DNA of 64,000 bases, taken from the NCBI GenBank assembly GCA_009829735.1, contig CM020620.1, positions 2,421,447 to 2,485,446 of the forward strand, read 5' to 3'. This DNA is from Pyropia yezoensis (Eukaryota > Rhodophyta > Bangiophyceae > Bangiales > Bangiaceae). The notes beneath the pieces are model-generated. The model saw only the letters and a program-made list of their open reading frames with translations. It ran no database searches and was not told where the DNA came from. Below are positions 2,929 to 58,053 of the stretch, piece by piece; positions within the stretch are counted from its first letter, which is position 1; each line of letters opens with the position of its first letter. A program made the translations under genes and the position numbers.

Positions 2929-2941
2929 CTCCCCTCTCCTC
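2929..2941 (-). other. D1 polypurine tract
   Basis: Read on the minus strand this is GAGGAGAGGGGAG, immediately upstream of the 3' LTR. This is the usual position of the plus-strand primer for reverse transcription. Confidence 0.8.
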
Positions 2942-3266
2942 AGTTCCGACCGACCCGGTCGGCCCTGTGAGGGGGTGCGTAAACGCACGTCTCGGCGTTG
3001 GGGGCGCGACTTGCTGTCCCCCAGCGAGTACGTAACGCGGATGTGGAGGCGGTCACGTTAACCGCCCCTCTCCTTAAGCTTGCCCACTTGGCAGCTTGCT
3101 CTCTTCAGTTCACACTTCACCATTACCACCACCTCCCTTTCACCTTCCACTGGGCCGCCCCACGCTGGGGAGGCCACCCGTATACCCACGATCCGAGTCC
3201 CCCTCAACTCGAGGCGGGTCTCGTGCCGCGATAGCCAGAGCGTCTCTCCCCAACTTGGGGAGAGCC
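2942..3266 (+). promoter_or_regulatory. Leader and presumed promoter of the D1 antisense ORF
   Basis: This is 325 bp between the polypurine tract and the ATG of the antisense ORF. It includes the palindromic CCGACCCGGTCGG near 2948-2962 and a pyrimidine-rich stretch around 3100-3160. I see no clear TATA box. The LTR read outward could also drive transcription. The regulatory role is inferred only from position. Confidence 0.3.
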
Positions 3267-5210
3267 ATGGCGACTCCGGGAGTGGGGACGGACTCTCTTG
3301 ACGAGCGCATGGAGGACACCTCCTACGGTGCAGCACCCGCCGGGACTTCCGGCGGGGGCTCCGCGATCGCTCCGGGGGACGGGACTCCCGCGTCACCCGG
3401 CTTTGGGTTGACGGCGGGGTCTCCCCCGGAGGCGGGACAAGTTGTCCCGCGTGAGGCCTTGGGGCGGTGGTTTTACCCCGCTTGGCCTCTCTATGAGGAG
3501 GGGCTGACTGTTCTTCGCTGTGGCCGACTTGGCCCTGCGATGGGCCGGGTATGGGACCGCCTACGGGAGAAGTATCCCCGTAGGGTCGGGTTCCCTGCCG
3601 GCTTCAGGACGGACCAGTTTGCCTTCCTGGACGATGAGGAGGTTGAGGACGTTCAGCGGGCCAAGGCCATGGTGGACCGCGGGGGAACTATCCCGGGTCC
3701 CGGCGACTTGCCGACCTTCACGTGGGACGCTGTGGCAACTCGCCCACCGTACCTCCACGAGGCCGATCCGCACATTCATCACTTTGATGTGCGGATGGAG
3801 AAAGACTTCCGGCGAGGTCCCTACTTGGTGACCTCGGCTCAACTTGAGTTTCCTCAACAGTCTGCTGCCAGTAAGGAGCAGTACTATCCGAAGAAGCCCG
3901 AGTGGTGGCCTCAAGTTGAGGTCCCCTACGGGTTCCCGGCGTTGTTGCCACGGTTGATTGACCACTTCGGCTCCGTCATGTTCACGGCTGCCCCTGATCA
4001 CCTGGTGTGGGCCATGTTGGCCACCCAGTGGCTCCTCGAGGTCATGTCGACCTGGGTGTCCTGTGTTCAGCGGCGGGGGATGCTCTGGCATCTCCCCCTC
4101 CGGCTCATCCAAGGTTTGGAACAGCTCACCTCTCAGCTAGTTGCTGAGGGGTGCTCATCAGGACAACTCACTCTACTTGAGGAGATGCTCCGGCTCCATA
4201 AGTTTATCGAGTGGGAAAGCATTGAGCACAAGTTGCGCCGCCCCACTCGTGGGCCCAAGGACGAAGGCGCACTTCGCCAGTTCGTGTGGGTCGCTCGTGA
4301 ACTTCACGACGGCCGTGTGGTCCTACGAGAGGGGTTGGGCATCGGGGACTACCCGTATGCCCCGGGGGTGGATCGCCACACTGCGCCACCCCCGGACAAG
4401 CCCATAGTTATGGCCGTGCCGTCCTATGATGACCATATGACTCAACCCACTGCGGGGGCCCCAAGTCGGGGTCGCAGTTACACCCGGGTACCGCCACCTC
4501 GGCGGGCCCCTCCGCTTCCTCCTGTTCCTTTCCAACCTCACGGGAACATCCCGATCAGCGTGGCCGTGGAGTCTTCCACCCCGGTGTCCCCCGACTTGGG
4601 GGCCACCCTCCTGACGGTATACCCCAAGTTGGTGTTGCCGCCCACGCCTCTAACCTCAGAGATGATGATCACCACGTTGGTGCGCACCATTTCCTGGTTG
4701 GCCGCGTCGACCGCAACCCTACAGAGTTCCGAGACTCCTCAACTTGAGGAGCGCGTTCGTACTGCAGTGGCGACCGCGAGTTGCGAGTCGGTGGCGGAGT
4801 TTATGACAGCCGAGTTGGCTCGCATTGGGGCTATTATGCCCCAGCCAGCCCCATTTGGGAGTGGCAAACGTCGCGCGAGCCGGGCATACTCGCCTCCTCG
4901 CCGTCGTCGCCGACACTCGCGGCGCTCTCCTTCCGTATCGGAAGACGAGTTGTCTTACTCCGTTTCGGAGTCCTCTACCCCGTCGGAGATGGAGTCTGTC
5001 CAGCGTCTGCGTCGCAAACTTGCGCGCAAGACCAGGCAGAAGAGTGGCCACGGTCGGCGCCACTTGCGCGACCGTGAGGGGCGCGACGGTTCCGACTTGG
5101 AGCCGCCGCCCCCTCCAACGAGTGGAGACCGTTATCGGCGTGGGTCTCGCCGCTCGCCTCCACGTGAGGGCGAGGGCCGTGGAGTGGGAGAGTCTAGCAT
5201 GCGTGCCTAG
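3267..5210 (+). CDS. Antisense ORF of D1 (aORF-D), unknown function
   Basis: This is a 647-codon ORF on the strand opposite to gag-pol, between pol and the 3' LTR and convergent with pol. I chose the ATG at 3267 because it lies in a strong context (GCCATGG); the frame is open further upstream without an ATG. The N-terminal 60 residues are Gly/Ser/Pro-rich. The middle has an aromatic region with a YYPK...VEVPYGF segment near residues 200-225, then a predicted helical block (about residues 245-315) with WLLEV, WHLP and LEEMLRLHKF. The C-terminus is strongly basic and Arg/Ser-rich (RRRRRHSRRSP, RRLRRKLARK), which could bind nucleic acid or direct nuclear import. Similar blocks occur in the antisense ORFs of families A and B. 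No enzyme motif was recognised. The D2 copy is also open as far as the window shows. Confidence 0.75.
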   Translation: MATPGVGTDSLDERMEDTSYGAAPAGTSGGGSAIAPGDGTPASPGFGLTAGSPPEAGQVVPREALGRWFYPAWPLYEEGLTVLRCGRLGPAMGRVWDRLREKYPRRVGFPAGFRTDQFAFLDDEEVEDVQRAKAMVDRGGTIPGPGDLPTFTWDAVATRPPYLHEADPHIHHFDVRMEKDFRRGPYLVTSAQLEFPQQSAASKEQYYPKKPEWWPQVEVPYGFPALLPRLIDHFGSVMFTAAPDHLVWAMLATQWLLEVMSTWVSCVQRRGMLWHLPLRLIQGLEQLTSQLVAEGCSSGQLTLLEEMLRLHKFIEWESIEHKLRRPTRGPKDEGALRQFVWVARELHDGRVVLREGLGIGDYPYAPGVDRHTAPPPDKPIVMAVPSYDDHMTQPTAGAPSRGRSYTRVPPPRRAPPLPPVPFQPHGNIPISVAVESSTPVSPDLGATLLTVYPKLVLPPTPLTSEMMITTLVRTISWLAASTATLQSSETPQLEERVRTAVATASCESVAEFMTAELARIGAIMPQPAPFGSGKRRASRAYSPPRRRRRHSRRSPSVSEDELSYSVSESSTPSEMESVQRLRRKLARKTRQKSGHGRRHLRDREGRDGSDLEPPPPPTSGDRYRRGSRRSPPREGEGRGVGESSMRA

Positions 5211-5321
5211 TTGGCAGCTGCCTTTGTTGTGAGAGTGTGAGGGTTAGGGCTGTAGTTAAAAACCACTCTGAGTACCACTTCGACTTGAAGCACTCTCTTG
5301 GCACTGTTGCTCGGCCTTCCC
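5211..5321. other. Convergent junction between pol and antisense ORF
   Basis: This is a 111-bp gap between two stop codons on opposite strands. Next to the pol stop is an inverted repeat, CCCTCA-cgt-TGAGGG (near 5319-5335), which also lies at the pol end of D2 (near 63084-63098). Both transcripts must end here or overlap. No poly(A) signal is obvious. Confidence 0.5.
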
Positions 5322-8300
5322 TCACGTTGAGGGAGGGCTGTTAGGGTCTATCTCATTCCGGGCACAGTACGCCCGGACCTTCTCAGCGGGAAGGTCCTCC
5401 ACATACTCCCACGTATCATCCTTGGCTTTGTAGCCAAACCAACGCACCCTCAACATGAGGCGGTCAGTGTCTTCATCCCATCCGTGGTCGATGAACTTAT
5501 CGAACACGTACTCCTGTGGGCCCTGTTTGGCCGCAGGCAGTGAGGGGAGGCGCCACGATTCCAACGCACGCGCCAAAGCTGGGTCGCCTGCAGGTGGTGG
5601 TGCAACTTTGACCACGTCCTGTCCGTTCACTGTGCGGACCCCATCGTCTCTTTCGATGGTGAAGCGCCGCCCATCAGTACGAAGGACCTGGTACGGTCCC
5701 TTCGTCTGGAATACCAGCTTACCCCCAGTTGGGGTGTGCGAGTGTACCAGCACCCAGTCACCCTGCTCGGGGACGTACTTAGCATTGCGCACCTTTTTGT
5801 CAAAGGTACGCTTGTAGCGCTTTTGCGCTTTGTCCATCTCAGCCCTGACTTTAGGGATGAGGTTTTCAAGCCTAGCAGCGAACTCCGCCTTACTCTCAGT
5901 AGGAGTAGGCGTACTGCCACCATCCTCCCTAGTTGGGAGCGACCGCCGCACGGCAATAGACCGCACACGACGGGGGGTCACAAAAGCGAGGGGTACTTCC
6001 CCTGTAGATGAGTGAACCTGCGAATTGTAGGCAGTAGTAAGGATAGAAATGTATTGGTCCCACGACTTCACGTGCTCACTCACATAGTGGCGTAGCTGCC
6101 TAACAATAGTTTTGTTGAAGCGCTCCACCTGCCCATTAGTTTGTGGGTGGTAGGGGGTGGCATAGTTTGCCTTAACCCCCAACATATCCAGCACTCCCTG
6201 AAACAGTACAGACGCAAATTGCGGTCCATTGTCCGATAGTGTACTATCTGGGATGCCATACGCGGCAACCCAGTGATCTAGGAAGGCTGACACGACCGAC
6301 ATGGCCGTGACCTCTGCCAGTGGGATCGCTCGCGTAAGTTTCGTGAAGCGGTCACAGATGACCAGGATGTACTGGTTGCCCTCCTCGGTCACTGGCAGTG
6401 GCCCAAGGATGTCCATCGCCAACGCGGCAAAGGGCTCCTTGGCCGGGAACAATAGCATAGCCGTAGTAGGCCGCCGTTCCATCAGACGGTTCTGTGCACA
6501 ACTTGTGCAGGCAGCCACCCAACTGTAGATGTCCACCACCATGGACGGCCAGTAGTACCTGGTCCTCAGGGTCTGGTACAGTTTACTAGACCCCAGGTGT
6601 CCACCCGTGGGAGCGTGGTGCTCCCTCTCAAGGACACTGTCCTTGAGGGATGCGGGGACGACAAGTTGTTCGGTCCCCTGGTATACCCCCCTCCTCATGA
6701 GGAGGCCATCGTCTCCCAGAAAGAAACGCGTCTCTACCACTGTATCTAGTATATCCCTCTGGGACTTGCAGAAGGGATCCTCGGCCTGGGCCTTCACCAC
6801 CTCGTCCAGGGACAGGGGCAAGTACTTCTTGTTCCCTGGCGCCTCGGGGTTCAACGCCTGACCCGAGCGCGTGACTACCCCCACGATGGGGATGTCCTCA
6901 TCGACTGGGTTAGTGTCCAGCCCCTCGGTAGGTACCCGAGAGAGGCCGTCGGCAAGGGCATGTTGCCTGCCAGGTCGGTATTCAATGTCAAAGTTGAAGG
7001 GTGCCAGTCGCACCCTCCACCGGTTGAGACGAGTGTTCGTACAGTCCGTCTTAAAGATGAACTGCAACGCGCGGTGGTCACAGCGGATGAGGAACTTCTC
7101 ACCCTCCAGGTAGTGACGAAGTGACGTCACCGCCCACACCACTGCGAGTCCTTCCAACTCGGTGACTCCGTAGTTCTTCTAGGCCGAGTTCAGCCCCTTA
7201 CTAAAGTATCCCACCGGCAAGTACTCCTTGCCCGGCTGCTGCTGAAGCAACACACAACCAAGTTGGTCGTAGCTAGCGTCCACATCCAGGATGTAGGGGC
7301 CTCCCAACCTGGGAATAGCCAAGATGGGGGGCTTCAGCAGAAGGTCCCGAAGAGTCTCAAAGGATTCCTGCTCCACCCGACTTGGGGGAGGCAGGTTCTT
7401 CGGTAGCGTTGAGCTCACTAGCTCATTCAACGGCTTCGCCACCTTGGCGAAGCCCTTGGTGAAACGTCGGTACACGTTACACATCCCGAGGAAGCTCCTC
7501 ATCTGGGTCTGGGTCCGGGGGTACTGAGCCTTACGAATGGCCCTCAAGTTCTTCTCGTTAACACTGAGACGCCCCGGATGGACAACATGTCCCAAGTACT
7601 CCACCTCTTGAGTAAAGAGGTGGCACTTACTCGCCTTCAGTGACACACCGGCGTCAGCAAGTAGCTTGAACACCTGGCCAAGATGGCCAATGTCTTCCTC
7701 CGGACTTCGGGAGAACACAATGATATCGTCTAGGTACACAAGACAGATCTGCCACCGTACTCCGGCCAGAATCATGTCCATAGCGCGCTGGAAAGTTGCC
7801 GGCGCGTTACACAGACCAAACGGTAGACGCTTGCACTGGTAGGTACCACAGTGACAGGTAAAGGTAGTTTTGTGCCTGTCCTCCGGGGCAATGGGAATTT
7901 GCAGGTACCCCGCGTTACAGTCCAGGGTAGAGAACACGTTTGCCTCCCCCAGAGAGTCCAGACAGTCATCCATCCTAGGTAGGGGATAACTGTCCTTCAC
8001 CGTGCTCTCGTTGAGCTTACGGTAGTCGATACAAAACCGGGGGGTCCCATCAACTTTGGGGACGATAACCACCGGACTCGCCCACTCGGCGTTGCTGGCC
8101 TCGATCACATCGAGGGCCTCCATGCGAGCAACTTGCTCCTTAACGAGGGCCCTTGAACGAGGTCCTCCCCTATACGGTTGTTGGCGTATAGGGGGTGCAC
8201 CGGGCTTCAACTCGATCCGGTGTTGGGTGGCTCTCATGAGTCCCAATTGACCATCCCACAACTTGTGATATTGGTCCAAGAGGCGTTCAACTTGAACCCT

Positions 8301-9314
8301 CAACCTGGGGGGGACACCCTCCATGTTCACATGGGGTGGAGGAGAGGCGGCCGACTTGGCTTGATGCTTCTCCTTTCCGGACTTCGGGTCGCTACTTGCG
8401 CCCGCGTTGAGCGTGACCGCTACTACCGGTCCCTCGTGTTGGTCGATATAGCCGAACTTGGCTCCCGACTTGAAGTACTTGGGCGTCGGGCTCAGGTTCA
8501 TCACCTGGATCCTCCACGGGACTCCGGCTTTGGAGTCCATCGTGCCAAGGGCAACATGCACTTGGTGCTTGCGAGCAAGACGGGGGTGAGGGTGCACCAA
8601 CCCGTTCCCCGTAAAATCAGTTACAACATCAACGTGCGCCACCGAGTTGGGAGGCAACGTGACTTTACGGGCTAGACGCAGGGTAGCAGTAAACCCTTCC
8701 CTCACAGAGCAAACAGGCTTCGACTGTGAGACTGTCACAGGAGCCACAGACTTTCCCTTACCAAGGATGGGGATAGTCTCCCCATTCATCAACTTGACCC
8801 AGTACTCAGGGCCACAAATCAACGGCACTTGTGTAACAACATAAGGGGTACCCAGAAGCAGGGGTACCGATATATTCTCAACTACGCCAAAGGTCACGTC
8901 GACCTCATGGGTCCCCAACCTAGTTGGTAGGGTCACGGCACCAACGATGGGAAGTACCCCACCATTGATGTCAATCATATGGTCAGCTTTGGACCTCCAG
9001 CGTTGGAGGTTCACCTCCTTTGGTAATAGCGACTTGCGTATCAAGGAGGCTCCTGACCCGGTATCAAGTACGATGCGGGTACAGCATGCACGGCCGGGGG
9101 CAAGTTGCACCCGTCCAGCCACCTGGAAGTTCTCACCCGTCAGCACCGCGATGACCCGACGTGGGTTTACGTTCTTGGGGAGTCCTACCCGAGGTGGGCG
9201 GACTCCCTTAGGTCGCCGCAGTATCCGGCACGGTTGGTTCGTCCTCCTGGCCCACTTGGCCGAGGCTGCCGTTGTGAGCTTCGGACGGCCAGCTCCAACG
9301 GTCATTCGTTTCCC
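5322..9314 (-). pseudogene. pol: D1 pol: protease, RT, RNase H, integrase, chromodomain; one nonsense codon
   Basis: The frame is open in -1 relative to gag from the heptamer at 9314-9308, and also has an ATG (9305) overlapping the gag TGA as ATGA. The order is aspartic protease (DTGSGA, 9065-9054), RT (YLDD at 7736-7725), RNase H, integrase (HHCC, then AMDILGP, LSDNGPQF, GQVERFN) and a chromodomain-like end (VRWFGYKAKDDTWE) near 5480-5350. The only break is a TAG at 7181-7179 in RNase H, just before the KNYG motif. The D2 copy has GAG (Glu) there. All catalytic motifs are intact, so this copy lost function very recently or depends on readthrough. Confidence 0.93.
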
Positions 9315-11272
9315 GCCGACTTGGCGTCCGACTCTGAGGGCGGGGAGGAAGACGACGAGTCCGAGGACGACGTGTCCGCCTCCTCCGCCGAGGGTGTGGC
9401 GACCGCAACGACCGGTCGAGACCCACCCTCGCGGCGTGAACGTACTTCGTTCGTAGTCGACTTTTTACTCGCATTCCTAACAAGTTCTTGGATGCGTTTA
9501 CTCAACTTGGGGCAATCATATGCCCAGTGACCATCGGAGTTGCAGTTCCAACACCGATGGTCCGTTCCGGGAGGGGTCTTCCCAACTGGGGAAGACGAAG
9601 GGATACCCTGGGAAGTTCCCACGGCAGCTACCACCCTCTCCTTGCGGATTCGGCGTGCCTCTCTCAACTCTCTGGCCTGGCGCGCCTTTTGACGTTCCTT
9701 GGCCAACTCGGCCTGACGCTCCTGGCGTTGTTCCTCCCGCAACTTGCGGTAGGCCTCGCCTCTGCGATAGGCGAACCTGGCCAACTCGGCCAGGGTCGCC
9801 CGGGCAGTGTTATGCTCCCGGGTCTCCATCCGGACTGACCAATGGAGTCCCTCCACAAACCGACTCTTCACCACAGCTTGTGGATGAAGAAACCCACAAA
9901 GATTGTTGAGCTTACGGACTCGCTCCGCAAAGGACAACTCGTCCTCCGCCTCTTCCTTATGGGCTTGCGTAAACTCCTCGACTTGAGAAGCCAACGCTGC
10001 CTCATCAACCATGGCTCTCAACAACCAGTTGACGAGCTCAAAATAGGACGTCACCTCACCAGCGCCTCCACTTGAGGAGCTGGGCATGACGGACATAAGT
10101 TCTGTCCGTAGGTCGCCCTTCGTAAACTCCTGTAGCATGTAAAAAGCCATGCCTTCACTTATGGCATTGTCGTCACAGGCTTTTGTGAAACGACGTAGGG
10201 ACTCAAAGACACGGAGGGGGGGAGTTCCGTCCCACTCCGCTTTGTGCCCAAAAGAATGAAGTGCATTCTTCTTGGCACGGCCCATGGCTCGGGCCTGGTC
10301 AGGACCATACGCCACCGACTTGTTGTGGAGGGCGTAGGTCTCACAGTCAAAGATCCTCTGGTAGACCGGGTTGGCTACCTGGATCTTGGGCGGCACCGCA
10401 CGTTGAGGGAACAGCCGCTGTGGCACTGGGGTAAGTTCACTCTCAGTGCCTGTAGTCCGGCGCGGCGCGCTTGGTGTCGCCACCGGTGTTTCCGGGGGGA
10501 ACTCCCCCGTGAAGGGCGCACGCCCCACCGAGTATGGTGTGGCTCCCTCGTTGGGAGTCACAGGTGTCGCCCCCAGTTCGGGGCGACCAGAGATAGGCGT
10601 AAGGGGGGATTCCCCCTGCGCCTGCGGGCTCGAAAGCCCCAATCCGGTTTGGACATTAAGGCCATCTGGCAAACTCGCCACAATCTGATTCAGAATAGTA
10701 TTCGTCATCGTGACCACCAGGTCCGGCAAAGTCTGCCGCAACACATTGGTCGCCTCCCGACGGACAGTTTCCGCGAGGAGTGGATTGACGACTCCAGTTG
10801 AGTCTCGGTCCGCCTCCGGGAGTCCACCTGAGGGGTAACCACGTTCCTCAGGGGTCTCAACCGGGGGCATGGGCGCGAGCCCATCGCCGACCAACGGAGG
10901 TCTGCCGTCCTCCGAAAGCCTAGTTGGCGACGGCTCCAAGCCAAAGTTGGCTCCAACCCGAGTGGAACCCGCGGGGACAGTCCTCACCCCTTGGGACGTT
11001 CCCGTTGAGTACACCACGCGGTGGCCAGACTTCGGCCCACCCACATCAGAAGTGTCACCCGAGTGAACTCCCGACTGAGTCGAGGTGGCCTGTTGCCCGC
11101 CCACACTTCCAGTCCTGCTGGCTTGAGGGACCTCTAGTCCCTCTGCGACCCCAGGTAAACCCACCTGTGTCTCACCAGTATTCAAAGGCACTGAAGTACG
11201 TGCGTCACCCGTGTACTCCCCGGACGACGGGGGGTCCGAACTAGCCCTGTTGGCTGACGATCCGTATGACAC
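9302..11272 (-). CDS. gag: D1 gag (capsid/nucleocapsid)
   Basis: This is an uninterrupted frame of about 656 codons. The first codon of the open frame used here is GTG; the true start is uncertain. The N-terminal half is Ser/Thr/Pro/Gly-rich. A capsid-like helical region follows (FGHKAEWDG, RRFTKACDDNAISEGMAFY). A Glu/Arg/Lys-rich stretch (EEQRQERQAELAKERQKAR) is probably coiled coil. A CCHC zinc knuckle (CWNCNSDGHWAYDC) lies near residues 571-585. The C-terminal tail is Ser/Asp-rich and ends in AGNE just after the frameshift heptamer. The protein should form the particle that packages the RNA. Confidence 0.92.
   Translation of the reverse strand: MSYGSSANRASSDPPSSGEYTGDARTSVPLNTGETQVGLPGVAEGLEVPQASRTGSVGGQQATSTQSGVHSGDTSDVGGPKSGHRVVYSTGTSQGVRTVPAGSTRVGANFGLEPSPTRLSEDGRPPLVGDGLAPMPPVETPEERGYPSGGLPEADRDSTGVVNPLLAETVRREATNVLRQTLPDLVVTMTNTILNQIVASLPDGLNVQTGLGLSSPQAQGESPLTPISGRPELGATPVTPNEGATPYSVGRAPFTGEFPPETPVATPSAPRRTTGTESELTPVPQRLFPQRAVPPKIQVANPVYQRIFDCETYALHNKSVAYGPDQARAMGRAKKNALHSFGHKAEWDGTPPLRVFESLRRFTKACDDNAISEGMAFYMLQEFTKGDLRTELMSVMPSSSSGGAGEVTSYFELVNWLLRAMVDEAALASQVEEFTQAHKEEAEDELSFAERVRKLNNLCGFLHPQAVVKSRFVEGLHWSVRMETREHNTARATLAELARFAYRRGEAYRKLREEQRQERQAELAKERQKARQARELREARRIRKERVVAAVGTSQGIPSSSPVGKTPPGTDHRCWNCNSDGHWAYDCPKLSKRIQELVRNASKKSTTNEVRSRREGGSRPVVAVATPSAEEADTSSSDSSSSSPPSESDAKSAGNE
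9308..9314 (-). other. Putative -1 frameshift heptamer GGGAAAC (D1)
   Basis: In the gag frame it reads G GGA AAC followed by GAA TGA. Slipping by -1 gives GGG AAA and enters pol without meeting a stop. The same heptamer sits at the same distance from the gag stop in the other visible copies (see findings). Confidence 0.7.
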
Positions 11273-11348
11273 GGTCCAAGTCCACCGTTCCTCTGAGACA
11301 GAGGGCCCCCTACACCCGGGTGCACCCGGAGGTAAAGTTTACCTCTGT

Positions 11349-11365
11349 CCCCTGCTGCTCCACCA
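11349..11365 (-). other. D1 primer-binding site
   Basis: On the minus strand it reads TGGTGGAGCAGCAGGGG, two bases inside the 5' LTR. It is complementary to a tRNA 3' end whose acceptor strand would start GGAGCAG. The tRNA was not identified. The same 17 bases occur in A2, B and C. Confidence 0.88.
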
Positions 11366-11367
11366 AA

Positions 11368-11836
11368 TGTGGCAAAAACCACAAGCACACACGGCACCCA
11401 AGTTGGGGCGGTGTACTAGGGCTGCCTCCCGTGTCGGGGGAGCCGGAAGAAGTGCAAGTCGCACACACTCTGTCCCTGTTGTGGGGCAAACCCCCCACGG
11501 ACAAACAAGAGGATGGTGTGTGGTCCAACAGTTTCTTGGTCGGGACGGGGACGCAGGGCCAAGCCCCGCTGTCCCTCCCCTTATCCCCCCAGGGTCCACT
11601 CAGAATCTCGCCACTCAGAATCTCCCACCCCAGCACCTGCCCACCGGGCCACACGAAAATTCAAGACGATAAATGCAGAAAACCCTCAAATCCAAGTTGG
11701 ATTTACTACTAAGCTAACTATCCCAAACTTAGGGAATATGGACCCAAATGCAGGGGGAGGAACGGATCAGGCTAGTGGCCTGCCGCCCCTTGCATGGCAC
11801 GTGTTGCCCCCTTACCTGGGGGTCAATACTGCCACA
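11368..11836 (-). repeat. D1 5' LTR (469 bp)
   Basis: It is the direct repeat partner of 2460-2928, adjacent to the primer site, which identifies it as the 5' LTR of a minus-strand element. It ends at the GTAAC target duplication (11837-11841). Confidence 0.97.
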
Positions 11837-12934: not shown

Positions 12935-15304
12935 TCAGTGGGTAGACCCACTGCCCGAGGGAGGCCACTCACGCGTAAGCGCGTATACCTCCGTGCTCCA
13001 TCGGTCGGCAATCTCACGACGGTCAATCGCCCGAGTTACCTCGGTGCATAGCTGGACGAGGGTGCAGCGGCCAGCCTCCACATCCTCCAGAGCTTTCTGG
13101 AGGCGGTCAAGCACGCCACCGAAGCAACGCGCTGACCCAACCAGCGCAGCACCTGGGGGGATATCCCCCCAGCTAACAGAGAGACCCTCCCGCATTGCGC
13201 GGACAACAAGGGCGTCAACGCCCTCATACCAGAGACGGGGGCTCCCGTCTTGTATGACAGGGGCGGGAGCGGACACTGGCGCAGCCAGAGGAGCCAGAGG
13301 AGCCGACACGGCCACCACCGGAGTCGGTGGCGCCTGATATGAGGCCCGGTAGGACCCCACCGAAGGGGCTCCACCGTAACCCCGGCGGGGCTCCGCCCGA
13401 CGACGGGACACCTCACGCTCCCCACCCGGAGAGCCCCACTCTCGGGGACGACGGCCAACCGCCGCCGGTATCGGGTTACCGAACCACGGGGCAAGGACCT
13501 GAAGAGGGTCATGGATAACCATGGGAATACCCAGGTCAGGAACGGCCTCGGTGGACGCCCACCCATGGCAATTGGGCTCACCCGGCTGAGTACGCCGGAT
13601 ACGCAACGAGTGACGAGGCAAGGGGGAAGCCCCAGCCTGCGGGTCCCGGTACGGGGGAAGGGCCAACACCCCAACCTAGTTCACGGCATCGTGAACAGCC
13701 AGCAGGGCTTCGAACTCCCGGGCCAACCCGGTCTTGGCAGCTATCAGGTCCACGCCCAACTGCGCGATGGGCCGACGGACACCCGTCGGAAGATGAAACA
13801 GGCGCCCCTGCCGGCGGACGGACAGCAAGAAGGAGGACGCCTGCCCGAGGGTAACCTCAAGGGTGAAGGTACCCTGCAACGGGTGGACCGGCCGGGAGGC
13901 CAACACACTCCCGAAGTATCGGAGACAGGAGCCGGTGTCAAACCGGAAAGCAGGGGCGGGTTCCCACCCCTCCTGCCACAGAGGCGGGCGCACGGGAGTG
14001 TATACCGGCGCACGACCGTTGCCGGTCTGCAACGCACACGTTATATCCGTGCGGAACGCATCCGCCATGACACCATGGTTACGTCGCCAACTCGACGCCG
14101 ACTTCAACCCCGCCATAGGCGGGTAGGGGGCCGTCAACGACAGATACGGGGATACCCCCGGGTAGTAATCAAAGTCGGGATACCGACCGGTACTGCCCAC
14201 CGTCTCCCCAAATGCAACCGGCTCCGCCGCCGCCGCAATCCCCCGAGCACTAGCCGGGTAGTCAACCTCCCGCGGCAACGCGGGGGCGATTAGGTCGCAT
14301 ACCCCGAAGGCGGGGTCGAGGTAGACCTCACCCCGTCCCATCCCAGTGCGCCAGAGCTGCGCATGCCGGTCGTCCGGCTGACTCAGGATCCAATGGTGTT
14401 CCACTCGCACCGCGTTCGGCTGGTTGACCAGCTGCACCAACTCCCGCTCCCAACTCGGGTCCACCTTGACGCGCCGGGAGGACTCTCCACGGGGATGAGG
14501 CAGGTGGAAGTCCACCCGCATCCGCCCATCGGACTCCATTGACTCTTGCACAGTCAGGCCTCGAACCCGAGCCACCAAGTCGAACATCGACATGGCGGGT
14601 TGACCCGCCGCCACGGCGACGCCGCCACCCAACGGGGCAACCCGGGCAGGACCAGGAAGAATAGGGGGCGCCGGGGGATGCCCCACCGGAAGAGGGGCCG
14701 GCGCCGGAGTCGCACGCGGCCGAGGAGGAAGAAGAAGGGCGGGCGCCCGCCCGGAGTAACTACCGGAGTCCACTGCCATCGGTGTAGACCCACCTTGACC
14801 ACCAGACGCCCGCGGCACCGCGGGCAGAGCATCGCCGCCACCTGGACCCGACGTGGGTACCACGGGGGCAGCACGGGTAGACCCGCTACCCGCCGCAGCG
14901 GACACACCAACCGGGCGGGCACCCGCGCCGTCTTGACCCGCCGGACTGGACGGGGAGCCAACACCACCATCCGCTACGCCGGCGACACCGTCTTGAGGTA
15001 GAGCCACGCCGGTACCGTCGACAGAAGCCATCCGGGCCGCCGGAGGAGAAGCGGTAGAACCCACCGCTACACGCGGTTGTCCGCCACCCGACGGAGCCGT
15101 CGTGCCGCTACACACGGACGACAACCCGCCCGGCGCGCCTTCCGGGGCTACACAAACGGTCACCCGGTCGTCCTCGTCCTCCGACGAGCTCGCTAGGAAG
15201 CTCTCGGCGGCGGTGGCGGAGACGGGAACGTCGTCCACCATCACCTCTTCCCCCTCCTCAGGCAGGAGGTCGTCCTCGCCCCCGGGTACCTGGGGGTCCG
15301 ACAT
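12935..15304 (-). pseudogene. Antisense ORF of A1 (aORF-A), one nonsense codon
   Basis: This is a 790-codon frame on the strand opposite to A1 pol, starting at ATG 15304 and ending near the pol end. It begins with an acidic Asp/Glu-rich segment (EDDLLPEEGEEVMVDDV, SSSEDEDDR), then 150 residues rich in Ala, Gly, Pro, Ser and Val. A central domain follows, with a YYPG segment, FHLP and FEALLAVHDAV near the helical block also seen in aORF-D. The single interruption is a TAG at 13678-13676, where A2 has TGG (Trp). The C-terminal part (12935-13669) is in the same frame. Its function is unknown. Confidence 0.72.
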
Positions 15305-16376: not shown

Positions 16377-18357
16377 TCAGGGGCTGGAGCGTGGAGCGCC
16401 CTCCGCAGCCGTGGGTACTTGCGCAGGTGTGGCTGCCTCGGGTCGCATAAGCGGCCGCACGGGCCGGTCCAGGGCCGCTTCAACAGTTTCCAATAGCCCA
16501 GCCGCAGAGGCGGGCAGCGGCACCATATGAACAGGGGCGGCGGGGGGGGACGGCGGCGGTCGCAAACTGTCGTCGTCGTCCTCCTCCTCGTCGGCAGGGG
16601 CCGCGGATGGGGGGGGCGACGGTCGCACACTGTCGCCGTCGTCCTCCTCCTCGTCGGCAATCTCATAAACAGCAGGCCCGGTCGTGGCGTCCATTGCCGC
16701 GGCCGGGCTCACCGTCGGGGGGGTCCAGGACTTGGCCGGCTCGGGGCCGAGAGGAACGCCGGCCGCCTTCAGCATCTGGCGCGCCTTGGTGCGCATAAAC
16801 AGCTTCGCCTCCTCCGTATCGCGCATGTTGGGCTGGTTGAAAAGGATAATGGCCGACCGCTCGGCCGCGGCATTTGCCACAGCCTAGAGTGCTTCGGTGC
16901 TGGCCCGCACTTCCCGCGCCGCCGCAATGTCTTCCTTGCGGCCACGCTTAGCCGCTTTGGTGCCAGGTGTGCGAGGGTCAAATTTGCGTGCAGGGCCCCC
17001 GACGTTGCCACTGGTGCTGGGGCCATCCGCCGGGTCGTCCGTCTCAGGGTCGTCATGCTCACTTGTCCCGCTGCCCTCCGTGCCCCTGCGGGTGCCGATT
17101 CCCGCCGCGGCCGATCCAGCGGCGCCGCTCCACTTGTCCGAGTTGCGCAGCACCTTCCAGCACGGGACATATTTCTGCAGCGGGTAGTACTTGCGCTTCC
17201 CAGTCTCGGCCTCCGCCCCGTCCATACGCGCCTGATGCTTTCGGATAGCCTCGTAGATGTCCATGCCCTTGCTGTGGGCCAAAGCGCCCTGGATGACCGC
17301 CTCCTCGGACGGGTTGCCTGTCAGCTTCAGGCGCTGCACAGCTAAAAACGACGATGCGAAAGCGCTGGTCATCTTCTTGACTTTGTCCCAGGTCTTCGTG
17401 ATCGATCCCCCCGTGCGGTCGTTCGTCATTGGCAGCGCCCCGCGGGCGCGCATCAGGTCCAGGTCCTCGTCGCGCCCCCCAGTGTAGAAGTCTGCCCCCC
17501 TCTGGTCCGTCCCCACAATGTTGTCCCGCGTTTTCACAAGCCATGCCTGCGACAAACACGTCAGCTCCACCTCCGACCACCCCAGGCCAGAGCCCATGGC
17601 GTTAGGCACGCGGAGGGCCTTGCCCGCGGTAGCCGCCACGAGCACCGTGGCGCGGCAAAGGCAGTCGAGGAGTCGGCGGGCGGGGGCCGAGGTCGGCGGC
17701 AGGCGGGGGCGCCGGCGGCGGTGGCGGCCGCTTGTCGTAAAGCGCAGGAGGGCGCTCGTTGTAGGGCGGGGGCAGGCGTTCGTTGTAGAGCTGGGGCATG
17801 CGCTCGTCGTTGGGCGGGGGCGGGGCGTCAGGTGAGACCCAGCTTTCGCCGCGGTCCTTCTCCCAGCCGGGACTGGGGGGGCGCCGGCGTTGGTCGTCCT
17901 GATACCGCGGTGCGCGTGTGCGGCTGCGGGGGCGCGGCGGCTCTTCCTGCTCAACGCGGGGGCGGTGGCGGCGTCCAAAGTTGTCGTTGTCGCGACCGCC
18001 GTAGTGGCCGTGATGATCGTTACGCGGAGGCGTAGGTCCGCCACCATAAGTAGTCGGCGGCGGGGTGTAGGTCCAGCCAGGAGGCGGGGGCGCCGCCCAA
18101 GGGCACGGGCAAGTCCAGTGGCAGGCGCCGCGGGGCGCGCTGCTTGCCGCACGCGGCATCCAATCAATCGGCGAGGGCGCGGCCGGCATCCATGCGCCGT
18201 CGCGGGGAGGCAGCATCCAGGCGCCTTCCGCGGAGCGGCCACCAGCACCGCGGCCGTGCATGTCGTAACGGGCGGGGAAGGGAACGGTTGGCGTGGGCGG
18301 GGGCGGGGTAGGACGTGCCGGCCCCAAGGCGGGAGAGGGAAAGGCGGGAGACGGCAT
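16377..18357 (-). pseudogene. Myb/SANT-like protein of PIF/Harbinger type, damaged
   Basis: The ATG at 18357 has a strong context (CCACCATG). The first 250 residues are Pro/Arg-rich with repeats (YNERLPPPYNERPPALYDKRPPP). The frame must then change (frameshift or small intron, about 17600-17700). The next segment resembles the Myb/SANT and NAM-associated proteins carried by PIF/Harbinger transposons: GWSEVELTCLSQAW, NIVGTDQ, TKTWDKVKK, and a later YVPCWKVLRNSDKW. A TAG at 16886-16884 interrupts the frame. Coding-like sequence continues beyond it (NAAAERSAIILF, EEAKLFMRTKARQML) through an acidic/Pro-rich tail to the stop at 16377. In the family this protein binds DNA and helps the transposase enter the nucleus. 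The assignment rests on the pattern of Trp and charged residues, not on a search. Confidence 0.6.
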
Positions 18358-18670
18358 GGTGGGTTCGGTTGGGCGGGGGCAAGCAGAGTGGCGAGCGTCG
18401 TGCGGGGCAGGGCGCGGCTAACGGTGGCGGGTGGGCGGGGTGGCGTCGACCCGGAGAGTGGGGCGACGTCCCCGCCCTCTCCCAAGAAAAACCGTCGACG
18501 GCGGGTGGGAGCGCGCCCTCCGCCAGCGCAACGCCTGCGCCCCCCCCCCCACCATTGCAGAGGAGGTGGGGGGTGCGTGTCCGATCGCTGGGGCTGTTGG
18601 GACGTCAGCCCGGATTCAAGTCGTGGGGGAGGGGGGGGGGCCGGGGGAGGGCATACACGGGGCGGGGGCG

Positions 18671-19012
18671 GTTTCGCGGTGTGCTCCCCCCGATCCACGC
18701 TGTGTGCGGGGATTGAAGGGGGGGGGGGGTCAGGAGGCGGTTTGCACTGCGTCCTCGCTGTCCATGCCGTATGGGGGGGTTGTGACGAGGGAGGGGGGCG
18801 TCGAGGGGCGGGCGGCCTGCACTGCACCCCCCACAGAAGCACGCTGTGGGACGGGGGTCGACCGGGGGGGGGGGATAGGGCGGTCGGAGGGCAGTTTGCA
18901 CTGCGCCCCCGCCGTCCATCGCGAGTGGGGGAGTTGCTGCGGGGGGGGGGAGGGGGCGCCGCGGGGCGCGCGGCGTACACTGCACCCCCGCCAAACTATG
19001 CCAAGGGAGGGG
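18671..19012. repeat. G-rich degenerate tandem repeats, about 70-80 bp period
   Basis: Five imperfect units start at about 18671, 18741, 18817, 18895 and 18975. Each begins with a TTTGCACTGCG-like box, then a C-rich and a GTCCATGC-like segment, then runs of G up to 12 long. The plus strand has many G4-type runs. Long open frames across this region on both strands are explained by the composition. It lies upstream of the Myb/SANT gene, so it could be part of that element's end. Confidence 0.6.
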
Positions 19013-21456: not shown

Positions 21457-22027
21457 TGTAGCATCCCTGGCCCCGACTTGGCGCCGACCCGGGATTGCGA
21501 CCAGAGGGCACCAGGTGCCAGAACACGACCGCGGTGTGGTGATGGTTTGCGGCCGTGGCCCGTGCCCGGCACTGGGATGCGGTGGACTACGCTACCCACA
21601 CGTGAGAGAGGGATTTCTGATGGGTTTTCGCATATTTGTGAGGGACTTGATTTGAGAGAATTTGAGTGTGAAATGAGTGAGTGGGAATAGAATTAGTAGT
21701 GATCGTGGCCCCCGACCTGAGGAGGTTAGACTCGGGTCGGGGCCACTCGGGGGTATGGGGGGGCTACCTGGCCAACGTGCCGAGGCTCCCCCAGATGCAC
21801 GTTAAGAGGGACAGCGAGGCGCCCTTGGCCCGCGCCCTCAGGAGAAAGACAACTTCGCGTTTGCTTTCCTCTTCCCCGTGTGCACTACCGTGCGTATCTG
21901 TTTGCTCTGCGAGCAGGCACGTGAGGCAACATGCATACCACTCTCGTAGTTCCCCTTTCTGTGTTACCTGTCCCTTCCCCCTGAGGGATATTGACGCGTG
22001 TCTGAGAGGATCGAGTTTTATACCACT
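21457..22027 (+). repeat. Solo LTR of family B (571 bp)
   Basis: It is similar along its length to the B LTRs at 24566 and 33644 but has many substitutions, and its last base is T instead of A. Perfect 5-bp duplications CTGAT flank it (21452-21456 and 22028-22032). No primer site or internal region follows. This is the product of recombination between the LTRs of a full element older than B. Confidence 0.93.
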
Positions 22028-22032: not shown

Positions 22033-23624
22033 GCACATAATGGGTACAAAGGTGGGTCGCTGTCCGTGGGTTGACGACCCACATTTTACCCACATTTGGT
22101 ACCCATGTCGCACTTGCTGATACTTTCTCATGTTCTCAGGAAAGTTCTGGCTTCAGTTCTCACGGCTGCTCTAAGAGCAGCTTGTACCCTGTTAGTAGTT
22201 AACGAGTACTTTTCCCCCGTACCGCTCTCGCGACCAACTTGCGTTGTTCGCCCGGATTGTAAGCGTGCAACTGAAAGTTGCTGAGGCACAGGAGTGGACG
22301 TACCAGGCCTGCTGGTTCCACGGCTTCGCCGCCAACTCATCGAGAAATTGTGAACGCGTGTATGGCGAAGTAGCTTGCCACCCATCTCGGGCATTCTCAA
22401 AGAAGAGTTGACTTCCACCGTGGCCCACCATCGCCCGGATATGAGCGGTGGCTGTGGCGACTCCGGCAGCCACCACCCAAGCTGTCTAAAGCCACAAGCT
22501 GCAGCAGCCTGCTAATCCTCCCGCGTCTCTGAAAAGACGAGAGTCGCGTCAGGCAAGACTGTTCCGGCTCAGAACCTGCACGCCAAAACGCGAACAGCGC
22601 ATGATGCAGAGCGAACACCACAATATGCGTCCCAAATCGTTGCGCCTAATACGTGCACTACTGTTTCGCTGTGAGCAACATCTCTCAGAGTTCTACATCG
22701 CCCAGACCAGTCGTTATAGCACCTACTTGTCATCACACCACACATGTCAACCCTAACGCTCCGGTCTCGAACGGGCACACCATACCAAAGCCGCGCGAGT
22801 AACTGTCTGCACGAAAACACACAGCGCAAGCAACCATCCACCCGGCAGCCAACCCGGCCACATCTTCAACAGGTCTTCACCATTCAAGAAACGCTGACCA
22901 TTTGGTCTCGTTCAGATCGTAGATATTGTTTTTCTCAAGAATTTCAGCTTAAGATATACCTCCACGCCTTCAGAAACTGCGAGTCGCAGACTTGCAAGAA
23001 TATCCCGACCAGCTCCCGTCATCACTGTCCCAGGCTCCCCTCGCTTAGAATCTCTGAACGGTTCTCAGAAGGATTCCGAGAAAAAAATAATGTGCGCCGA
23101 TCATTCTTGTCAACACTCTTCCTCGTGACTTTCGAATAGTTCGCAGACCGGTTCAACAACTCTTGGTGAAATGCCAAAAACTTATTTCTGAGAAGAAATA
23201 TCACGGATGTACTTGAGAATGTATTGAATGCAATGTCACCTTTTTGTTGAATGGGTGATCTTGAGTACTCTTCGTATTGTTTGGTTATTAAACCGTTCCG
23301 AAATACTGTTTTTGAAGAGTTTCGCACGCCACTGAGTGGCTAGACAGCGGTATCAGGCCCATTTGCAGTTCCGCTTCGTAGAAACATCACGCCGTTATAA
23401 CGCGCTCTGGGCTTCGAAAGGACGCACGCACGGTCGTTACAGTGGACCGCATCAAATACGTAGTTATCTGATACAATGCTGACAGTTCGCCTGCACAATC
23501 CCACCAAAAAAAGGGGTTCGGCTTGCTCCGTGCTTTGCGGGGTGCGTGGCGGCGCTCGACCACCCGGGCGCACCTGGTGTGATGCAGCTGCTCCCTTGTT
23601 CTTGATGTGCAAATTACCACAGTG
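22033..23624. other. No gene recognised
   Basis: This is moderate-GC DNA between the solo LTR and element C. Open frames (for example 22744-23139) show no known domain. AT-rich stretches near 23080-23320 contain no TIR or tRNA that I can see. Confidence 0.4.
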
Positions 23625-23629
23625 GACCC

Positions 23630-24273
23630 TGTGGCGTTCTGAGCCCCTGGGACCGTTGGAACTCGGGAGACTGACTTGGGACCCGGCTGGCAGCGTTACG
23701 TGGAACCACGCGCTGGCCGAGGATCCCTGCATCGGTGGCCCGGGGCAGTGGCGACACGCCCGGTGCCCTGATTGGTCACCCGGAGCGGTGGACTTTCCGG
23801 GTTGGGGCATACTGACCTTGGGGTTATTTGTTTGATTTTTCGCATTTGTTTTCCTTGCGTGATTTCGTGTCTTTCCCCTTTTTCCCACTGGGTTTTTTTC
23901 GGGGATTGACATTTGTGTGTGGGGAGATTTCGCTTGCTTTTTGTGTGTTAGCCCCGTCAGCGGCCGGTGCCTTGCTGGCACTTGGCCCGCTCGGGGCGCC
24001 CTCTGGGGGCCTCGCTCAGGGCCCCTGGAGGGGCCAGGGGGGGAGGTTCTTGAGGGGTGCTCCGGGGTTCTCCCCGGGGCCATCTTGTAAAATCAACAGT
24101 ACTTTGGGTTCCTTCTCCCTCGGGCTTTTGTCCTGTTTACCTTTGCCTCGTATCGTGGCGGGCGAGTGGATCAGCAAGGGCTCTTACCTGTTCCATCCTG
24201 GGCTTCTGACTGTGGTCTCTGTGTGTGTGGTTGTGGTTTCCGGGTCTGGGAATCTGGGTCCCATTACGCTACA
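23630..24273 (+). repeat. C 5' LTR (644 bp)
   Basis: It begins TGTGGCGTTC and ends GCTACA, and repeats at 41650-42293 with one difference. The primer site follows after four bases. Confidence 0.96.
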
Positions 24274-24277
24274 TTTA

Positions 24278-24294
24278 TGGTGGAGCAGCAGGGG
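24278..24294 (+). other. C primer-binding site
   Basis: TGGTGGAGCAGCAGGGG lies four bases after the 5' LTR and is identical to the site in B, A2 and D1. Confidence 0.9.
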
Positions 24295-24414
24295 AGGGCG
24301 TTACTCTTCTTCCGTATCGGGACAGCCTTCTTGTTTCTTTGTGGCGTTTGGTTCCTTGGTTCCCGTTTCTAGTAACGAGATCGTTTGGTTCAGGTCGAGT
24401 GCCGCACGGCCAAC

Positions 24415-24565
24415 ATGACGGACCCTGTCCCTTCGGGTAGTCGGGGCCGTGGTGCGCCGTCGGACGTTTCGATGGTTACTCCCGCTGGCCGTGGCCGCGG
24501 CGGTCCCTTGGGTCCGTCGAACCGTGGTAGAGGCGGGCCGACAATGATTCCTCGTCGGGGGACAG
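24415..24565 (+). pseudogene. gag: C gag, N-terminal part (cut by B)
   Basis: The ATG at 24415 opens a frame of 50 codons with Arg/Gly repeats (SRGRG, GRGRGG, NRGRGG), a typical RNA-binding RGG composition. The frame runs into element B. Across the insertion it matches the phase of the gag frame at 34221 onward, so this is the true start of C gag. A TGA at 34292-34294 separates it from the capsid part. Confidence 0.65.
24561..24565. repeat. Target-site duplication GACAG of B
   Basis: GACAG before the left B LTR is repeated at 34216-34220 directly after the right B LTR. This proves that B inserted as a unit into C. Confidence 0.96.
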
Positions 24566-25137
24566 TGTAGCATCCCTGGCCCCGACTTGGCGCCGACCCG
24601 GGACTGCAACCAGAGGGCACCAGGTGCCAGAACACGCCCGCCGTGTGGCGATGGTTGGCGGCCGTGGCCCGTGCCCGGCACTGGGATGCGGTGGACTACG
24701 CTATCCACACGCGAGAGAGGGATTTCTGATGTGTTTTTGCATATTTGTGAGGGACTTGATTTGAGAGAATTTGAGTGCGAGATTAGTGAGTGGGAATAGA
24801 ATTAGTAGTGATAGTGGCCCCCGACCTGACGAGGTTAGACTCGGGTCGGGGCCACTCGGGGTTATGGGGGGGCTACCGGGCCAACGTGCCGAGGCTCCCC
24901 CAGATGCACGTTAAGAGGGACAGCGAGGCGCCCTCGGCCCGCGCCCTCAGGGAAAAAGACAACTGCGCGTTTGCTTTCCTCTTCCCCGTGTGCACTACCG
25001 TGCGTATCTGTTTGCCCTGCAAGCAGGCACGTGAGGCAACAGGCATACCATTCTCGTAGTTCCCCTTTCTGCGTTACCTGTCCCTTTCCCCCGAGGGCTA
25101 TTGACACGTGTCTGAGAGGATCGAGTTTTATACCACA
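24566..25137 (+). repeat. B 5' LTR (572 bp)
   Basis: It begins TGTAGCATCC and ends ATACCACA. It contains an imperfect hairpin, GTGGCCCCCGACC...GGTCGGGGCCAC, around 24815-24858, which is also in the 3' LTR and in the solo LTR. Confidence 0.97.
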
Positions 25138-25141
25138 TATT

Positions 25142-25158
25142 TGGTGGAGCAGCAGGGG
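25142..25158 (+). other. B primer-binding site
   Basis: TGGTGGAGCAGCAGGGG lies four bases after the LTR, the same 17-mer as in the other families. Confidence 0.9.
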
Positions 25159-25346
25159 ATTGGAGTGTTTGAGAAGAGACATTTGGGAGCAGCGGTTGCG
25201 TTGTTCCTATTCTGTCTTTTTCTGTGGTTTGGGAATTATTTGCACCCGTTCACGGGAACCCCATTCCTGGCTCTCCAACCCCTCTCTTGTGGTCTTGCGA
25301 TCTTTGGACACGCAGGTAACTGGACTGTGGCTGTCAAGAGACCAAC

Positions 25347-27107
25347 ATGGCTACCCTCCCTGGCACGACGGTGCCCGAAGGGGTAGACCCCGCGTCCCTT
25401 GACGCATCCCTGGTCACCGCGGGGGACGGTGCCCAACCCGGCGTTCTCCCTACGGGTGAAGCAGACCTGGGCGTGACATCCGGTAGTGGACTGGAGTCTA
25501 CAGGCGGCCAAGTACCCCCTGCTTTCGTTCCTCCGGCTGTTCCTCCTGTGGGAGCCACCCCGGGGTCAACGGCGTTTGAGTCCGCTCGCAGCAGACGTCT
25601 CCCTCCTGTCGGTTCTACTCTTCAACCTCCAGGGATAGCCCCTGGTGTGTTTACTCCTGGACCCACACATGGCAGCTGGGTGTATACACCTCTTCCTGTG
25701 GGCACTAGCAGTGCCAGAGGCACCGCTATGACTGGTTCTACGGGTCTTCCTGAGACTTCGACTCCTGGGACCGGCCAAGCTTTTCCTCCCCTTGCGTCCT
25801 ATGGGGCGGGGAGCTCCAAGACCGGTGACCGGAGCAGCCGTAGGCGTCGGCGTCGTCGCCGCCGCTCTAGCACCAGCGAGACCAGTTCCTCCAGCTCTGA
25901 GGAGGGATATGACTGGGATGCATCTCCCGGTCCTACCCGGCGCAGGCTAGTCGAGTTCGACTTCCCTGCCCACCAAGTGGGAGATGCCACCCTGAACAAG
26001 GTCACGTATTGGGGTAACTACCGGCTGGAGAACCAAGACCAAGGTTACACCCGGAAGATGGCCAAGAAGATGGCATCCCTGAACCGGCGAATGCAGCCGA
26101 GCTTTGGGGGGCATCCTAAGTTTTCCGGGAAGAGACCGGCGCTTATCTTTGCCTTCCTGCGCCGGTTTGTCAAGGCATGCAATGACAACGATGTGTCCGA
26201 GGGCAAGGCTCTCTATCTCCTGGTTAACTTCATGACCGGAGAAGCGGAACAGCGGTTTGCACAGGTTCTACCAGACTCTGCCGGGCACATTGTTGGACGT
26301 ACCGTCGCGAGTTATCCGGAGGCGGTCAACTGGCTCCTGTCCAACTACGCAGACGCGGACTCCCTGCGTAAGGCAGTCGGTAGGCTGAACCGGGCAACCA
26401 TGGAGAGACAAGAGACTCCAGAGGCGTTCGCCCGTCGTGTCCGGGAGATGAGCGATGCTTGTGGCAACGTTTACCCTGAGGACAGGCTCAAGATGATCTT
26501 CTCGGAGGGGCTTCCTGAATATCTTCAAGTGGATGCGGAGAACTACAACCAGGAACATCAAGAACATACCTTCCAGCAGTTGATGGCCTATACCCAGGGC
26601 AAGCACCGGCAAGCCAAGGCCCTCCAGGCTCCTATGGTATCAACCCCCAAGCCGTTGTCGCGAGTTCGTCCCGGACCCGACAAGTATAAGGGAGGTGATA
26701 ACCCTGTACCGGTACTCGCAGTTGGCGAGGCCTCACCCATGGAGTCAAGGGACAAGTGGGGCGGCTTCGTTTCTAAGGAGCAACCTTCCCTGGTCGCCCC
26801 CAAGCAGATCAGGAACCAGCGGTTCCGGTCTTGCTGGCTGTGCCAGAAGGAGGATCATATGTCCTACCAGTGCCCGACCATTCCCGAGGATCTCCAGGAG
26901 AAACTCAAGCGTCAAGGACTGGTGTTTACAAAGGCGGTCAACTGGGCTGACCGGCGGGCACCCTCCAAGATGGACAAGGCACAGGTACATGCCATCCGAG
27001 TGGCAACCTTACAGAGCATCACGGAGGCTCTGGCAAGGGAAGCTCCTACGGACTTTGACCTGGAGACCGAAACCTCTAAGGACTCCTCGGAGCCGGGAAA
27101 CGAGTAG
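25347..27107 (+). CDS. gag: B gag (capsid/nucleocapsid)
   Basis: This intact 586-codon frame starts at ATG 25347 (ACCAACATGG context). The N-terminal third is Pro/Gly/Ser/Thr-rich, followed by an Arg cluster (RSSRRRRRRRRRSS) and a Ser-rich acidic patch. The capsid-like region has HPKFSGKRPALIFAFLRRFVKAC and NDNDVSEGKALYL motifs that match C and D. A CCHC zinc knuckle (CWLCQKEDHMSYQC) lies at 26832-26873. The frame ends PGNE-stop, with the frameshift heptamer just before. The protein forms the particle and binds element RNA. Confidence 0.94.
   Translation: MATLPGTTVPEGVDPASLDASLVTAGDGAQPGVLPTGEADLGVTSGSGLESTGGQVPPAFVPPAVPPVGATPGSTAFESARSRRLPPVGSTLQPPGIAPGVFTPGPTHGSWVYTPLPVGTSSARGTAMTGSTGLPETSTPGTGQAFPPLASYGAGSSKTGDRSSRRRRRRRRRSSTSETSSSSSEEGYDWDASPGPTRRRLVEFDFPAHQVGDATLNKVTYWGNYRLENQDQGYTRKMAKKMASLNRRMQPSFGGHPKFSGKRPALIFAFLRRFVKACNDNDVSEGKALYLLVNFMTGEAEQRFAQVLPDSAGHIVGRTVASYPEAVNWLLSNYADADSLRKAVGRLNRATMERQETPEAFARRVREMSDACGNVYPEDRLKMIFSEGLPEYLQVDAENYNQEHQEHTFQQLMAYTQGKHRQAKALQAPMVSTPKPLSRVRPGPDKYKGGDNPVPVLAVGEASPMESRDKWGGFVSKEQPSLVAPKQIRNQRFRSCWLCQKEDHMSYQCPTIPEDLQEKLKRQGLVFTKAVNWADRRAPSKMDKAQVHAIRVATLQSITEALAREAPTDFDLETETSKDSSEPGNE
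27095..27101 (+). other. Putative -1 frameshift heptamer GGGAAAC (B)
   Basis: It reads CCG GGA AAC GAG TAG in the gag frame. The -1 frame (GGG AAA CGA GTA) is open from here into protease, and no ATG precedes the protease region in that frame. Confidence 0.75.
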
Positions 27108-31195: not shown

Positions 31196-31340
31196 GAAGA
31201 AGGGAACGGGTATATCAAGGAGAACACGCAATGCAAGCATGGAACAATCAAGGAAAACAAGCACCCGCTCGAGCAACCCTTCTCTCCGCCTCTTCCCTCC
31301 TCGCTTCTCCCAAGACCCTCACCCTCCTTGCCTCCAACTA
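31196..31340. other. Convergent junction of B pol and antisense ORF
   Basis: This is 145 bp between opposing stop codons, purine-rich on the left and pyrimidine-rich on the right. No palindromic array like that of family A was seen. Confidence 0.4.
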
Positions 31341-33630: not shown

Positions 33631-33643
33631 AGGGAGGGAGCTA
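33631..33643 (+). other. B polypurine tract
   Basis: AGGGAGGGAGCTA immediately precedes the 3' LTR. Confidence 0.82.
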
Positions 33644-34215: not shown

Positions 34216-34220
34216 GACAG

Positions 34221-41635: not shown

Positions 41636-41636
41636 T

Positions 41637-58052: not shown

Positions 58053-58053
58053 A

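Follow-up and report, generated by a model that had tools for sequence, protein, structure and literature searches.

A long open reading frame (ORF) lies opposite gag-pol in an LTR retrotransposon of the red alga Pyropia yezoensis, and the question that it raises is whether it is a gene that the element maintains and, if so, what its protein might do. We addressed this question in the window, by which we mean the whole stretch of 64,000 nucleotides that was analyzed, from a genome whose repeats are reported to consist mostly of LTR elements (PMC7423979).

Nested elements and the place of the antisense ORFs

The window contains four families of LTR elements (A, B, C, and D) that are nested in one another. 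The D1 element, on the minus strand, is delimited by a 3′ LTR at 2457 to 2928 (TG...CA ends at ~2460 and 2928) and a 5′ LTR at 11365 to 11836, which are 99.6% identical, and its gag-pol region occupies 5322 to 11338, with the gag frame at 9305 to 11338 and the pol frame, interrupted by a single in-frame stop at 7179 to 7181, at 5325 to 9464. D1 is inserted in pol of the A1 element, with a target duplication of 5 bp. Similarly, the B element (24566 to 34215, plus strand; LTRs at 24566 to 25137 and 33644 to 34215) is inserted in a C element (23621 to 42293 with B nested inside; LTRs at 23621 to 24273 and 41641 to 42293), and the A2 element (48829 to 58416, minus strand; LTRs at 48829 to 49191 and 58054 to 58416) is inserted in D2. 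Since the primer binding site TGGTGGAGCAGCAGGGGA after the 5′ LTR is common to D1, A2, B, and C, these elements likely use the same tRNA primer. Other features of the window include a B-type LTR (21457 to 22026, ~95% identical) that had no partner nearby and is probably a solo LTR, a tandem duplication of 365 bp where A2 pol ends (52626 to 53355, 98.9% identical), and a 703-codon minus-strand frame at 16887 to 18995, the C-terminal half of which we take to resemble a SANT/Myb-like or NAM-associated transposon protein.

Searches against Pfam identified RVT_1, RT_RNaseH, H2C2, and rve in the pol of D and B, RNase H and integrase in that of A2, and integrase in that of C, while the reverse transcriptases of A and C were located by tblastn. 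A zinc knuckle was found in D gag above the Pfam cut-off and in B gag below it. At the end of the integrase, a chromodomain scored 26.4 bits in D2 against a cut-off of 25.1, whereas the domain was in place but below the cut-off in D1 (20.5 bits), B (21.3 bits), and the C copy L074 (23.5 bits), and Pfam detected none in A2. The chromovirus (Ty3/gypsy) label, which a first-pass annotation had given to families A, B, and D, thus applies to D, is weak for B and C, and is not demonstrated for A.

The complete antisense ORFs (aORFs) of D, B, and A each lie between pol and the 3′ LTR and run opposite to gag-pol, as that annotation had described. In D1 the aORF (3267 to 5210, plus strand) has 647 codons, from an ATG at 3267 to a stop at 5208 to 5210, and its frame is open from 3078 onward, upstream of the ATG. 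A leader of 338 bp, defined by its position only (2929 to 3266, plus strand), separates it from the 3′ LTR, and a spacer of 111 bp (5211 to 5321) separates its stop codon from the facing stop of pol; the facing stops of aORF and pol in B are 145 bp apart. The B aORF (31341 to 33458, minus strand) has 705 codons and that of A2 (49843 to 52149, plus strand) 768, in a frame open from 49540, while the A1 aORF (12935 to 15304, minus strand) is broken by one in-frame TAG at 13676 to 13678 and only the last 263 codons of the D2 aORF (63208 to 64000, minus strand) precede the end of the window. The ORFs of D, B, and A2 thus have the place, the orientation, and the length (a minimum of 250 codons) of the antisense accessory class named aORF-3R or eORF-3′R.

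A core shared by the proteins of families A, B, and D

The proposal, made initially from motifs compared by eye, that the three antisense proteins descend from one ancestor was borne out by several comparisons. BLASTP aligned the D protein with that of A (E value of 7e-8 over 115 columns) and with that of B (9e-9 over 166 columns), while A and B reached an E value of only 0.005. Smith-Waterman z scores of the core were 15.0 for D-A, 11.9 for D-B, and 4.9 for A-B, and the core score was reached by 0, 0, and 1 of 1,000 shuffles, respectively. Profile searches, which the first-pass annotation had named as a check, gave a similar result: leave-one-out hidden Markov models (HMMs) found the omitted family at E values of 6e-4, 2e-7, and 2e-7, compared to 0.23, 0.17, and 0.09 for the best of 200 shuffles each, and when the 582 six-frame ORFs of the window were searched with an HMM built from any two families, the third ranked above all unrelated ones. 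Given that A and B were not significantly similar when whole proteins were compared against local shuffles (z of 0.8; 48 of 200 shuffles reached the score), the A-B link runs mainly through D, and single-sequence hhalign probabilities were 80% for D-B, 61% for D-A, and 3% for A-B. As judged by these sequence comparisons, the proteins of A, B, and D share a core of roughly 115 to 165 residues, and the core alone is demonstrably shared. It spans residues 156 to 320 in D (3732 to 4226, plus strand; BLASTP and Smith-Waterman matches to A and B), about residues 156 to 362 in B (32373 to 32993, minus strand), and about residues 405 to 525 in A2 (51055 to 51417, plus strand). The accompanying claim that most of gag differs between families was not supported, as the gag proteins of D and B are clearly homologous (Smith-Waterman z of 32; 127 of 424 aligned residues identical).

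The N-terminal part of the antisense proteins is Pro/Ala rich, the core probably helical, and the tail family specific. In D the tail is Arg/Ser rich, and the most basic 30-mer of the protein carries a net charge of +11; since A (+6) and B (+5) lack an equally basic stretch, this tail is not shared. Its composition suggests a nuclear, nucleic acid-binding protein in D. A structure model of the core (pLDDT of 54) indicates that it may be a small helical bundle, for which there was no convincing fold match and no capsid among the matches listed, although a model this weak excludes nothing. Searches of Pfam and PDB sequences returned no known domain, in agreement with the initial impression from the sequence.

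Family C offers a comparison. Its spacer corresponding to the aORF slot (40162 to 41640, ~1.5 kb) is without the gene: it had no significant similarity to the antisense proteins of the other three families, and no clearly constrained open frame was seen in the three copies examined, so not all chromovirus-type elements here need an aORF. A DNA search returned C-like copies at 82 to 84% identity. Identity of pol between families is 34 to 48% over the aligned whole (46% for D-B) and 50 to 66% in the RT-RNase H region, and in an unrooted pol tree A groups with D, and B with C. Either the gene was gained once before the split of A, B, and D, with C outside, or an older gene was lost in C. Identity between aORF proteins is lower (75 of 280 aligned residues for D-B and 56 of 213 for D-A), from which it follows that the aORF evolves faster between families than pol does, even though it is constrained within them.

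Purifying selection on the antisense strand

We asked whether copies of the aORF across the genome have diverged as a coding gene would. The genome searches were limited to scoring the top candidates, and intact copies came first in the ranking. Ranked by the aORF itself, 7 copies with a stop were present among the best 63 of 14,591 candidates for D, none among the best 63 of 22,890 for B, and 13 among the best 58 of 29,998 for A. Since picking copies in this way pulls the omega of the aORF downward, D was also sampled by pol. The best 150 of 3,884 candidates for the D pol C terminus included many in a 1380-codon open frame, which marks D as a young, high-copy family. All 11 D copies picked by pol contained the aORF. 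Over the 1377 nt of it that were examined, stops were absent from all 11 and indels present in 2, whereas within 1200 nt of pol a stop occurred in 4 of them.

The selection test considered variants shared by at least two copies, which are mostly older than the newest insertions and had therefore passed through working elements. In the main D sample, comprising the 11 copies picked by pol and D1, shared variants over the last 1377 nt of the aORF numbered 39 synonymous and 12 nonsynonymous (omega of 0.13, P value of 8e-12), and those in pol of the same 12 copies numbered 35 and 9 (omega of 0.106). Singletons were relaxed in both genes (omega of 0.57 for the aORF and 0.62 for pol), as expected of dead copies. 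In samples picked by the aORF, with the bias described above, 21 D copies had 35 synonymous and 5 nonsynonymous shared variants (omega of 0.062) and 30 B copies had 38 and 11 (omega of 0.135), while B pol had 23 and 5 (omega of 0.10). We excluded the copies of the window itself (L001, L029, L059, L067, and L073), duplicates (L009 to L015, equivalent to L002 to L008), and L069, which occupies the same place as L061; coverage filters removed 1 of 7 D loci and 1 of 29 B loci from the pol counts of shared variants. Variants found only in the window were counted apart (2 synonymous and 12 nonsynonymous, and 0 and 6, in the D aORF; 1 and 4 in B).

In a pairwise comparison of L071, a copy of the main D subfamily, with D1, the aORF had an omega of 0.133 and pol one of 0.111 (P value of 2e-10), and between L071 and D2 these values were 0.33 and 0.21, respectively. 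Evidence pointing the other way came from the seven D copies nearest D1 by pol DNA, which had 4 synonymous and 7 nonsynonymous shared variants in the aORF (omega of 0.76), with an omega of 0.52 to 0.88 and stops in pol; we read them as a cluster that consists of recent insertions or dead copies. Because these seven copies are relaxed, the selection signal in D comes from older differences between subfamilies. The dN/dS comparisons suggested in the first-pass annotation also fell well below 1 between D1 and D2 (omega of 0.365, P value of 5e-5), as did the shared-variant values for D and B, while A1 and A2 gave a weaker value of only 0.53 (P value of 0.015). Neither an absence of profile matches nor a dN/dS near 1, two outcomes that would have spoken against that annotation, was obtained.

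A scan of all six frames in 300-bp windows, with the window copy as the reference and window-only variants removed, located the constraint along the elements. For D, the scan used 15 of the 18 distinct nonwindow loci with flanks (L061, L063, and L071 were left out). Omega was 0.11 to 0.28 in the aORF frame in six windows over 3229 to 5028, no frame was low at 5029 to 5328 (lowest omega of 0.66), and beyond the spacer omega was 0.07 to 0.42 in the pol frame, on the opposite strand. Similarly, in B omega was 0.03 to 0.40 in the aORF frame in seven windows over 31400 to 33499, no frame was low at 31100 to 31399 (lowest omega of 0.66), and pol had an omega of 0 to 0.21. The frame antiparallel to the aORF was also low in omega but contained stops in 6 of 6 D windows and 6 of 7 B windows. 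These scans constitute our clearest single result: in D and B the antisense strand contains a coding gene, ending where pol ends, and constraint on it is about as strong as on pol. We consider it nearly certain that the antisense ORF is a coding gene under selection. Two blocks of the B ORF, 31400 to 31699 (10 synonymous and 1 nonsynonymous) and 32600 to 32899 (14 and 1), are extremely constrained, and the first of these corresponds to the C-terminal part, where no homology across families was found.

Possible roles and relation to known antisense genes

Antisense ORFs in the slot between pol and the 3′ LTR are already known from plants and a fungus (PMC7264820, PMC11963269, PMC6317226). Those of the Retand lineage (Transposase_28/TRP28, PF04195; maize Grande gene23; rice RIRE2 aORF-3R, eORF-3′R) share the slot and orientation described here and occur in many copies of several families, and a nuclear regulator has been proposed (PMC11963269, PMC7264820). 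However, they belong to nonchromovirus elements of flowering plants, whereas the elements here are red algal and have chromodomains, and for these elements constraint has been measured. None of 10 aORF sequences matched Transposase_28 at E values up to 10, nor did a genome search find it, in which the control was weak since control genomes gave a sub-cut-off match only. Such ORFs are not confined to the Tat lineage, from which the first-pass annotation cited them: the element Boty of the fungus Botrytis cinerea also carries one in the same slot and orientation (PMC7264820), a likeness of position in a fungal host. Other extra ORFs of plant Ty3/gypsy elements encode lineage-specific domains, namely, the plant mobile domain of Ogre (PMD, PF10536) and ORF-1 of Athila (PF03078) (PMC6317226). 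Neither domain was among the Pfam matches of the 10 aORF sequences, and a genome search for PMD found none, with no match in the controls either.

HBZ is a bZIP protein and a model for a trans-acting regulator. In HTLV-1 it is encoded by an antisense gene at the 3′ end with a promoter in the 3′ LTR (PMC7264820); the likeness is an analogy only, given that no bZIP or other Pfam domain was matched in the aORF proteins. A literature search found nothing on antisense ORFs in red algal or chromovirus elements, with most subscription journals outside its coverage. The present case differs from the known ones in its hosts, in the type of element (chromovirus for D), in a protein family that has no known relatives, and in that selection on it was measured.

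We favor, with a probability of roughly 45%, the explanation that the aORF is a genuine accessory gene of a group of red algal Ty3/gypsy (chromovirus-type) elements, inherited from the ancestor of A, B, and D, whose product is a trans-acting regulator of its own family, probably nuclear. The RNA of gag-pol cannot encode the antisense protein, so an antisense mRNA is needed. This mRNA would be driven by the 3′ LTR or by the 338-bp leader behind it, the leader being, from its position only, the presumed start of the transcript. The protein would then act in trans, probably in the nucleus, to regulate how its own family is expressed or how the RNA of that family is handled. The D copy L071, in which a stretch of pol is open and the aORF is frame broken, fits action in trans. 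By analogy with Grande gene23, an antisense gene that is described as having a promoter of its own and as encoding a nuclear protein (PMC7264820), the antisense protein may be a nuclear regulator, a role that we assign to it tentatively. The roles that the first-pass annotation offered likewise remain conjecture. We are similarly guarded about a wider statement, that this is a red algal antisense family predating the divergence of at least three element families, with pol-like selection and a fold not yet described, which would act as a trans regulator or anti-silencing factor and would have originated independently of the antisense genes of plant Tat elements and retroviruses.

The same coding and selection evidence would also be expected of an accessory gene with another job, for instance in association with the Gag particle or, as a Rev-like or CERV-like factor, in the export of genomic RNA. 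Export has a precedent in the worm element Cer1, the genomic RNA export of which needs the nuclear accessory protein CERV (PMC10309623). However, the antisense proteins resembled neither D nor B gag in sequence and had no Pfam match, and nothing here favors export over transcription; we regard such a role as possible but rather unlikely. It is more doubtful still that the elements acquired the aORF from a host or a virus and carry it as cargo, to the benefit of the host or of cell-to-cell spread and not of element regulation. An outside source is conceivable, since no relative was found in other elements and change between families is faster than in pol (75 of 280 residues identical for D-B, compared to 46% in pol), but the gene is common to three families and constrained like pol, and no donor was found in Pfam, PHROGs, or PDB sequences or in protein searches, where the one relative was P0002 (95% identical; source label "lgn"). 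Were the antisense RNA itself what matters, as double-stranded or small RNA, with the open frame incidental, there would be a parallel in antisense RNAs of such kind discussed for other elements (PMC7264820). Yet this explanation predicts no excess of synonymous variants in one frame (39/12, 35/5, and 38/11) ending at a stop codon, so that it is largely refuted and very improbable. A chance long frame, for which the GC content of the window (~60%) and the existence of long chance frames such as one of 326 codons in the C spacer might speak, is refuted by HMM homology across three families, the omega of shared variants, and the confinement of constraint to one frame in D and B.

Antisense ORFs recur among plant LTR elements, and whether extra ORFs function is a question still raised in a survey of elements from green plants published in 2019 (PMC6317226). 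For one antisense ORF, shared by three red algal families, evolution answers yes, with constraint like that on pol in D and B, the two families with enough copies to compare. These findings extend the phenomenon of antisense ORFs to red algal elements and suggest repeated use of the slot between pol and the 3′ LTR for antisense genes. Since many near-identical copies are present, expression of the gene and its action in trans are directly testable.
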